Notes under the pieces: generated by a model
What the model saw: only the letters and a program-made list of their open reading frames with translations
Databases searched by the model: none
What the model was told of the DNA's origin: nothing
Assembly: GCA_947176965.1 (NCBI GenBank)
Contig: CAMWSU010000001.1
Coordinates: 1 to 64,000 of the forward strand
Length of the DNA stretch: 64,000 nt
DNA from: an uncultured Lachnospiraceae bacterium
Lineage (GTDB): Bacteria > Bacillota > Clostridia > Lachnospirales > Lachnospiraceae
Direction of reading: 5' to 3'
Position numbers and translations under genes: made by a program
Part shown: positions 45,225 through 47,079 of the stretch, piece after piece
Numbering within the stretch: the stretch's first letter is position 1
Layout of the letters: each line of letters opens with the position of its first letter

Positions 45225-45335
45225 AAAGAACGCTGCGCATTCTTTTCGGAAGAATTTGTTTACACAAATTCTTCGAGAGCCTAAGAGATTTCCAATATGT
45301 AGAAGAAGAACGCACAGCGTTCTTTTTCTACATAT
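45225..45335. terminator. Three tandem hairpins after the FtsX permease gene
   Basis: AAAGAACGC/GCATTCTTT (45225-45245), GAAGAATTTGT/ACAAATTCTTC (45249-45274) and a 19-base-pair stem with one G-T pair, arms 45295-45313 and 45317-45335, with loop ACA. The series starts at the permease stop codon and most likely ends its transcript. Confidence 0.8.
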
Positions 45336-45348
45336 TGCCCAAATTTGC

Positions 45349-45377
45349 TTGACGTGTAGAGAAAATTTTCGTATAAT
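45349..45377 (+). promoter_or_regulatory. Strong sigma-A promoter
   Basis: TTGACG (45349-45354), exactly 17 bases, TATAAT (45372-45377). It starts a leader of about 210 bases in front of the Rpn-type nuclease gene at 45593. Confidence 0.85.
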
Positions 45378-45592
45378 CAGCACAAAGCATATATTCTTTG
45401 ACGGATTATTTTCGGGTGCGTCAGCCATTTCTGAAATTGATCCGCGTCAGACGGCATTCTGCCGATTTCTAGATATTACCCTTTTCAATGTAATCTATGC
45501 TTTACCCGCAACAAATCAAAAAGCATAGTGCATGGAAATTGAAAAGAGGCGGACAGGCTCCTGTTTTCGTGCACTATGGGAACAGGAGGAAA
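45378..45592 (+). promoter_or_regulatory. Structured 5' leader of Rpn gene with sequestered Shine-Dalgarno
   Basis: A long leader with two visible structures. CTTTTCAAT...CTATGCTTT (from about 45481) pairs with AAAGCATAG...ATTGAAAAG (to about 45546). Then CTCCTGTT (45558-45565) pairs perfectly with AACAGGAG (45581-45588), which contains most of the ribosome binding site AGGAGG of the next gene. Translation would require opening this hairpin. Confidence 0.6.
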
Positions 45593-46471
45593 ATGAGACA
45601 ATTGGAAGAATTGAATCTGGTGGATAACTTTCTGGTGAACAGTCTGACGAGCCACCAAGTCTACGGAGAGCCTGCAGCGCGCTGCATCTTGGAGTGTATT
45701 TTGGGCAGAAAGCTCGGAAAGATCAGGGTGATCCCGCAGCGCATTGTGCAGGGGGAGGACACGGATAAACACGGCATCCGAATGGACGTGTACCTTGATG
45801 AGGAGGACGGAGAACTCTTCGACTTAGAACCCGACAACAATGATGGAAAGAAGGACGTTGCCGCCCTGCCGAAAAGAGCGCGGTTCTATCATGCAATGCT
45901 GGATGCAGGAAGCCTGCGGGCGGGAGAGAAATACAGTGTTCTCAGGAATGTGATCGTGATTTTTGTCACAACCTATGATCCGTTTTCCCTTGACCGGATG
46001 GTCTATACGATCAAGAACGGCTGTATCGAGGTCCCGGAGTTACCATATGAGGACGGAGCGAGGACAATCTTTCTTTACACGAAGGGAACGAAGGGGAATC
46101 CACCTGAGGATTTACGGGAGCTTCTGCATTACATGGAATATTCGTCAAAAGAGAATGCAAAGACAGAGAACTTACAGAGACTGCACGAGATGGTGACGGC
46201 AGTCAAGCGTGACGGAAAGGTAGGGCTTGCCTATATGAAAAGCTTTGAGATTGAAGAGCGGATACGGGAAGAAGGACTTGCGGAAGGAATAGAGAAAGGT
46301 GTGATTCAGGGGAAAATAACTGATATTTTAGACCTGCTTAACGATTTAGGTGAGATATCGCCTGCATTGAAAGAGCGGATCACATCTCAGAGGGATGGAG
46401 AAACGCTCCGTTCATGGTTAAAGCTGGCGGCAAAAGCGGAAAGCGTTGCGGAGTTTACAAAACAAATTTGA
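45593..46471 (+). CDS. Rpn family PD-(D/E)XK nuclease/putative transposase
   Basis: A 292-residue protein of the Rpn/PDDEXK_2 group, recombination-promoting or phage-defence nucleases. The catalytic region is GIRMDVYLDEEDGELFDLEP near residues 62-81, followed by LPKRARFYHAMLDAGSLRAG and VIVIFVTTYDPF; the usual IEMQ end of the motif reads LEPD, a variation in the site. The C-terminal region (about 225-292) with EGLAEGIEKGVIQGK resembles the separately translated small Rpn form known in E. coli. ATG 45593 follows AGGAGG, which can be hidden in a hairpin. It has its own strong promoter. Confidence 0.85.
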   Translation: MRQLEELNLVDNFLVNSLTSHQVYGEPAARCILECILGRKLGKIRVIPQRIVQGEDTDKHGIRMDVYLDEEDGELFDLEPDNNDGKKDVAALPKRARFYHAMLDAGSLRAGEKYSVLRNVIVIFVTTYDPFSLDRMVYTIKNGCIEVPELPYEDGARTIFLYTKGTKGNPPEDLRELLHYMEYSSKENAKTENLQRLHEMVTAVKRDGKVGLAYMKSFEIEERIREEGLAEGIEKGVIQGKITDILDLLNDLGEISPALKERITSQRDGETLRSWLKLAAKAESVAEFTKQI

Positions 46472-46582: not shown

Positions 46583-46610
46583 TTGACATAGATCCACAGC
46601 TTGGTATAAT
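46583..46610 (+). promoter_or_regulatory. Sigma-A promoter
   Basis: TTGACA (46583-46588), 16 bases, TATAAT (46605-46610). Drives the PhnB-like gene at 46660. Confidence 0.8.
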
Positions 46611-46659: not shown

Positions 46660-47079
46660 ATGCTGATACCACACTTACATTTTTGTGACAACTGCGAAGA
46701 AGCGATTGCTTTATATGAGAAGGCGTTCAAAACAAAAGCCGAAAGTATCGTATACAGCCGTGATTATGCACATATCGTAGACAACTGTGACGATGAACCT
46801 AATGAATATCCAGACAATAACAGAATAGCGCACGCTGCTATGAACATCCACGGACAAAAAGTTTTTCTGAATGATAGATTTGGGAACAAGGACAAATCTC
46901 TTGATTGTGCTGTTCACTTAATTGTTATGTTTCCATCTGTCGAAGAACTTCTTGCTTGCTATGAGTTTTTCAAAGAAGGAAGCATAATTGTTGACCCGTT
47001 CGAAAAATTACCGTACAGTGAATTATCGGTTAACTTTGTTGACAAATTTGGTGTGCAATGGGGTTTTATGACAGAGTAA
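46660..47079 (+). CDS. PhnB-like/VOC family protein
   Basis: A 139-residue member of the vicinal-oxygen-chelate superfamily, PhnB-like branch. It begins with PHLHFCDNCEEAIALYEKAF, and includes AAMNIHGQKVFLNDRFG and the end strand VDKFGVQWGFM. The usual metal ligands His/Gln/Glu are only partly evident, so enzymatic activity is unproven. A single gene with its own promoter and A/T-rich composition compared with its neighbours. Confidence 0.8.
   Translation: MLIPHLHFCDNCEEAIALYEKAFKTKAESIVYSRDYAHIVDNCDDEPNEYPDNNRIAHAAMNIHGQKVFLNDRFGNKDKSLDCAVHLIVMFPSVEELLACYEFFKEGSIIVDPFEKLPYSELSVNFVDKFGVQWGFMTE

Follow-up and report, generated by a model that had tools for sequence, protein, structure and literature searches.

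The rpn gene of the window (the whole 64-kb stretch of DNA analysed here) is preceded by a leader RNA that probably exists in two states and controls translation of this gene. The leader is a chain of strands, Z-A-B-C-(D)E, in which neighbours would compete for pairing. In the proposed closed state, A pairs with B within the helix P1 and the strand E, which carries the Shine-Dalgarno sequence (SD), pairs with the anti-SD strand D, an arrangement that would block ribosome binding. In the proposed open state, A is instead engaged by Z, the RNA's own 5' end, and B is released to pair with C, so that the SD hairpin would be pulled apart and the SD exposed. All these strands lie within the leader, from the transcript start to the SD, and their pairings are conserved, with covariation in B:C. 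We infer that translation follows the fold, being off in A:B + D:E (or C:E in a second type of leader) and on in Z:A + B:C. By analogy with the Rpn proteins of E. coli, the full-length and potentially toxic RpnL form may be kept low in this way until it is permitted by a signal or by a kinetic window during transcription. The first-pass annotation had proposed that the leader hides the ribosome binding site and makes translation conditional, and this view is supported by the conserved sequestration of the SD together with the conserved and covarying Z:A + B:C combination predicted to open it.

The strong promoter and the leader of about 210 bases claimed in that annotation were both found again. 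The promoter, TTGACG-17-TATAAT, matches the consensus at 11 of 12 positions in a consensus scan, which places the predicted RNA start near 45383-45385 and implies a leader of ~210 nt (45384-45592), the start codon of rpn being at 45593. Near-identical promoter boxes precede the other leaders of the same kind (type 1), and in the inspected leaders Z follows the -10 box at a distance of 5-7 nt. The elements of the locus are as follows.

45349-45377, + strand: promoter, with -35 box TTGACG (45349-45354), 17-nt spacer and -10 box TATAAT (45372-45377).
45384-45400, + strand: Z, the 5'-terminal element AAAGCATATATTCTTTG, nearly invariant.
45452-45464, + strand: P0, a short stem-loop CGGCATTCTGCCG separating Z from A; many leaders of both types have a GGC..GCC hairpin resembling it at this place (judged by eye).
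45482-45489, + strand: 5' strand of P1, TTTTCAAT, with its partner at 45538-45545, from folding; comparable strands occur in other leaders.
45495-45503, + strand: A, CTATGCTTT, partner of Z (open) or of B (closed), with little or no variation across 29 leaders.
45504-45519, + strand: apical loop of A:B, ACCCGCAACAAATCAA, with a C-rich CCCA/CCAA-like motif; candidate sensor site.
45520-45538, + strand: B, AAAGCATAGTGCATGGAAA, of which 45520-45528 pairs with A and 45524-45538 with C.
45538-45545, + strand: 3' strand of P1, ATTGAAAA, from folding.
45558-45568, + strand: D, the anti-SD strand CTCCTGTTTTC; 94.7% of D:E cells are paired in 29 leaders.
45564-45578, + strand: C, TTTTCGTGCACTATG, the complement of B inside the loop of the SD hairpin, with a conserved 10-bp core at 45569-45578.
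45578-45589, + strand: E, GGGAACAGGAGG, containing the SD AGGAGG (45584-45589), from alignment and folding.
45593-46471, + strand: rpn, 292 aa, Rpn family recombination-promoting nuclease / putative transposase, from profile matches.
46219-46471, + strand: candidate internal RpnS-like frame, ~78 aa to the stop, with GGTAGGG at 46219-46225 and an ATG (codon 215) at 46235-46237.

Upstream of the promoter, two GAACGC..GCGTTC-type palindromes with T runs lie at 45228-45335, between an ABC-permease gene and the rpn promoter. Similar hairpins are inserted between P1 and A in the leaders of several relatives (e.g. L003, L006, L040 and L043), which suggests that they are a dispersed hairpin repeat of the genus. 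The gene following rpn (46660-47079, a VOC-like protein) has a perfect consensus promoter with a TG at 46583-46610 (TTGACA-16-TATAAT, 12/12).

The closed fold of the window leader agrees with what had first been read from its letters. The strand CTCCTGTT (45558-45565) is perfectly complementary, as had been claimed, to AACAGGAG (45581-45588), a stretch that includes most of the SD, and the extended hairpin announced upstream of it consists of P1 (45482-45489/45538-45545) plus A:B (45495-45503/45520-45528). In the full fold, the SD hairpin D:E is lengthened by G-U pairs to 14 pairs and the computed pairing probability of the SD is 0.99. The 243-nt leader is more stable than shuffled sequences (z = -2.78), only 1 of 200 shuffles being as good.

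Two further complementarities were absent from the first-pass annotation. The RNA 5' end (45384-45391) is complementary to A, and 15 positions of B (45524-45538) can pair with C (45564-45578). C lies between the arms of the SD hairpin, and B doubles as the partner of A in the upstream hairpin. Z can pair with A in the open state (AAAGCATA:TATGCTTT) or form a small local hairpin. When B:C was imposed on the window leader, Z:A appeared unprompted in the minimum free energy (MFE) fold. The predicted energies are -61.4 kcal/mol for the closed state (P1 + A:B + D:E) and -58.9 kcal/mol for the open state (Z:A + B:C); MFE predictions are uncertain at such differences, and ~3 kcal/mol leaves the dominant state in cells undecided. 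The two states are thus near-equal in predicted stability, with the closed one slightly preferred. Along the growing window transcript, the MFE fold passes from Z:A to A:B, then to Z:A + B:C and finally to A:B + D:E as the SD emerges, and with 47 nt of coding sequence appended the open fold is slightly better again. These alternations show no more than the closeness of the two states.

Conservation of the leader elements extends over 32 distinct leaders, found in the own genome, in four congeners and in other genera (Acetatifactor MAGs, CALZBR and CAMBEF, all Lachnospiraceae). In the alignment of 29 type-1 leaders (A1), 93.4% of the cells of the 10-pair B:C core are paired and 17 two-sided changes were counted, a number inflated by the kinship of the sequences, which come largely from metagenome assemblies. 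These changes turn U-A into C-G in 8 sequences, C-G into U-A in 5 and A-U into G-C in 4. The covariation score of B:C was matched by none of 500 shuffles, and when the partner strand was slid by 1-3 columns only 4-72% of the cells were paired. For A:B and D:E, 96.9% and 94.7% of the cells are paired; no two-sided changes were observed in these helices in the 29 leaders because A and E hardly vary. Substitutions in D are mostly C-U swaps that preserve the D:E pair. The B:C helix is not perfect everywhere: the paralog L050 has a G-G mismatch within it, and L063/L072 keep it only after a one-base shift of register, made by eye. In two type-1 leaders (L047 and L051), ~45 nt are inserted between D and C, and both D:E and the B:C core are intact.

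The leader was too divergent to be followed by DNA search. With the window leader as query, the sole match in 250 Lachnospiraceae genomes was 40 nt long, in one other genus, and a covariance model was therefore required. A search with R1, a model of the leader core, picked up one leader preceding a very distinct Rpn subfamily (G031, L095). This subfamily was searched and the upstream regions were read, giving a second set of leaders (type 2), in which Z is AAAGCATATATTTCT, A is AGAAATCTATGCTTT, B is AAAGCAGGAGATTTCT, C is CTCCTGC and E is AGGAGG. In type 2, the SD is bound directly by C, and B is a mimic of the SD strand, so that B:C and C:E are strictly mutually exclusive.

The same chain of pairings is recovered from these sequences. 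In 24 type-2 leaders, duplexes formed by a leader's own strands were better than swapped ones for Z:A, A:B, B:C and C:E (p<=0.0002, with segments picked by eye), and this preference was absent for all non-neighbour pairs. In a less biased test, the position of C was left free and B was paired with the 30 nt immediately preceding the SD: own pairs gave -16.7 kcal/mol and others -12.9 kcal/mol (p<1e-4), own pairing was better than the median in 22 of the 24 leaders, and a control with B written backwards had no effect. RNAalifold selected Z:A unprompted in a 23-sequence alignment running from Z to B. When 21 type-2 leaders were folded without constraint, A:B had a probability of 0.72-1.00 and the SD was mostly closed, the closed fold being the ground state by 2.5-14 kcal/mol; forcing B:C brought back most of Z:A in 15 of them. 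The closed state is favoured by >8 kcal/mol in many leaders, and the open state may therefore depend on substantial help or be confined to the time of transcription.

SD-hiding switches are already known as a kind; the leader family itself is undescribed in Rfam or in the literature searched. Rfam searches at permissive thresholds with the window leader and ten relatives gave only sub-threshold and unrelated matches, mostly eukaryotic, and no description of a leader for these rpn genes was found in the open-licence literature.

The two leading explanations for what moves the leader between its states concern the trigger, and both are compatible with the two-state anatomy. The first, a serious contender that we nevertheless hold to be somewhat doubtful, is a kinetic timer acting with no ligand, in which the open fold is transient, or closed folds sequentially block premature translation, and the mature mRNA is off and activated by processing. 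The hok mRNA is a toxin-type message whose SD is masked through elements of alternative folds. The H. pylori aapA1 and aapA3 toxin mRNAs, with their SD hairpins and a 5'-3' interaction, are a precedent for metastable SD hairpins in such messages (PMC6733600). The rpn leader resembles both in masking the SD of a toxin-type mRNA by alternative or metastable folds; it differs in that its switching strands are all within the leader, that the encoded protein is a large member of the PD-(D/E)XK family and that Rpn control is reported to involve an intragenic protein antitoxin (PMC10327210). A timer would agree with the alternation of the MFE fold in the growing window transcript and with the position of Z at the very 5' end of the RNA. 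Against it, the conserved C-rich loop of A:B suggests a binding site, and a consensus scan for an antisense RNA promoter revealed no sigma-70-like minus-strand site within 45378-45592.

The second explanation, possible and rather less probable, is that the balance is shifted by something bound to the A:B loop region, which could be a small molecule, a small RNA or a protein (perhaps Rpn), the leader then being an orphan riboswitch or an autoregulatory site. The loop motif CC[CAT]?A is present in 29 of 32 type-1 loops and in 26 of 36 type-2 loops (mean of 11.3 and maximum of 19 in shuffled loops), and motifs of the CCCA/CCAA type are common to leaders that diverge elsewhere; this C-rich loop is the best candidate for a sensor or contact site. 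The near-isoenergetic states of the window leader and the sharing of the leader by many Rpn subfamilies also fit a sensor. On the other side, no large conserved aptamer-like core is seen, and the downstream Rpn proteins are so diverse that direct binding by Rpn is less likely. Like the translational riboswitches SAM-II and preQ1, the leader has two exclusive folds, backed by covariation, that would open and close the SD; unlike them, it has no known ligand, recognised aptamer core or Rfam match, only a short conserved loop motif being visible. A bolder form of this proposal, which we consider unlikely, makes the leader a widespread orphan RNA sensor of Lachnospiraceae, common to many divergent Rpn-superfamily genes, that would hold the mRNAs of anti-phage nucleases closed and open on infection or related stress via the conserved A:B loop. 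Pairing of this loop with the coding start (TTCCAA with TTGGAA), noticed by eye, was dropped because it fails to track changes, for instance in L041.

It is improbable that D:E (or C:E) is a static hairpin that merely lowers translation, the other complementarities being by-products. D:E alone does predict a paired SD, with the probability of 0.99 given above, but B:C covaries though a static closed fold would gain nothing from it, and leaders of divergent sequence retain Z:A and B:C, with own pairing better than swapped pairing. A DNA-level signal, with the complementary strands as the end of a gene-carrying mobile element, is very improbable: leader and gene do form multicopy cassettes, some of them decayed, and Rpn proteins are annotated as putative transposases, but the elements are confined to the stretch from transcript start to SD, a DNA-end role does not predict any competition between B:C and D:E or C:E for the strand facing the SD, and Zhong et al. 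found neither terminal repeats nor target duplications for rpn genes (PMC10327210).

The ermC-type attenuators consist of a strand chain 1:2, 2:3, 3:4 whose final hairpin contains the SD. The rpn leader is likewise a chain of competing strands ending in an SD hairpin; unlike ermC, it has no conserved leader peptide, and its first strand is the RNA 5' end itself. An ermC/trp-like mechanism, in which A:B would be controlled by a ribosome translating a short ORF from the AUG of A, is scarcely credible, and a conserved leader peptide was rejected: ATGCTT is found within A in almost all leaders, but the frame from this AUG spans 2 to 342 codons with no visible SD, the peptide is not conserved between types beyond its first two codons, and L111 and L128 have no AUG in A. 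In the window, the AUG inside A is in frame with rpn (45495-46471), and an N-terminally extended form of 324 residues is possible; this frame relationship is not conserved in most copies.

The two-state leader stands before a gene whose assignment to the Rpn family, already made from the letters, was upheld by profile scores of 62.0 bits for TIGR01784 (cut-off 52.1) and 27.6 for PF12784 (cut-off 27.4). A PDB sequence search with the protein gave no relevant relative. In the PD-(D/E)XK motif the D is kept, and the subfamily has E-P-D (once E-S-D) where other Rpn proteins have E-x-Q; given this unusual catalytic motif, nuclease activity of the window copy should not be assumed. Among the Rpn copies, the N-terminal 236 residues are 73-91% identical and the C-terminal part 33-89%, with a variable number of repeats. 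The candidate RpnS-like C-terminus is variable and made of four-residue EGxx-type repeats. The in-frame ATG at codon 215 and a GGT(A/G)GGG-type sequence upstream of it recur in nearly all listed copies, as judged from their sequences.

Rpn proteins have been presented as a large class of intragenic toxin-antitoxin and anti-phage proteins, and the E. coli relatives as toxic or defence-related RpnL/RpnS toxin-antitoxin pairs, in the sections of PMC10327210 drawn on here. The window gene resembles E. coli RpnL/RpnS in its family, its variable C-terminus with four-residue repeats and its candidate internal start. It differs by its structured leader, of which the same sections make no mention for RpnL/RpnS (Zhong et al. 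2023, PMC10327210); they do say that the L/S ratio suggests 'additional regulation' (PMC10327210). A leader acting on the start codon of the long form would partly answer what sets the balance between the RpnL toxin and the RpnS antitoxin, and can be tested by fusions.

The leader is linked almost exclusively to Rpn-superfamily genes. For searches across genomes we used a model running from Z to B (R2), built mostly from type-2 leaders and with the window leader left out. The window leader was the only significant place in the 64 kb (E 1.4e-5). R2 matched 27 of 149 other Lachnospiraceae genera, at 63 places including those of the own genome, and gave 0 matches over 244 other genomes of the clostridial class sample. 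Thirty-three of the 63 places lie <=350 nt upstream of a gene of the Rpn subfamilies searched. Most of the remaining ones precede other PD-(D/E)XK/Rpn superfamily genes, Rpn remnants or similar Pfam-less proteins; the downstream genes of L312, L319, L323, L340, L344, L348 and L349 match the Transposase_31 or PDDEXK_2 profile, and that of L345 falls just below the cut-off. Several Rpn genes of the same family have no leader, which is therefore not required, and it was absent from the Rpn genes of other clostridial families that were read. In viral contigs, searches for Rpn proteins and for the SD-hairpin pattern were both empty, and matches to a 16-mer of Z were read as chance.

The leader provides a strong sequence tag for further members of the fast-evolving Rpn superfamily in gut bacteria, Pfam-less families included. 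Six leader-bearing genes (L313, L326, L328, L335, L336 and L341) have no convincing Pfam match and carry motifs like EYKSP..DDFYKVYGYACFYK; they probably represent branches of the PD-(D/E)XK/Rpn superfamily that are so far undescribed.

In the own genome, the leader precedes four further intact rpn paralogs (80-89% identical), a broken one and two decayed copies (C21, L023/L031, and C23, L032) that kept the leader and little of the gene. These two, together with L321, L333, L334 and L339, are cassettes in which the leader is followed only by the C-terminal end of rpn. They look middle-deleted and are possibly antitoxin-only remnants. Further R2 places not associated with Rpn are L327, which precedes a coiled-coil protein, and L337, a decayed joint. 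In L317 (about 1501-1610), a truncated leader is fused to a secreted subtilase-like gene, identified by eye, that uses strand B (GCAGGAG) as its own Shine-Dalgarno sequence.
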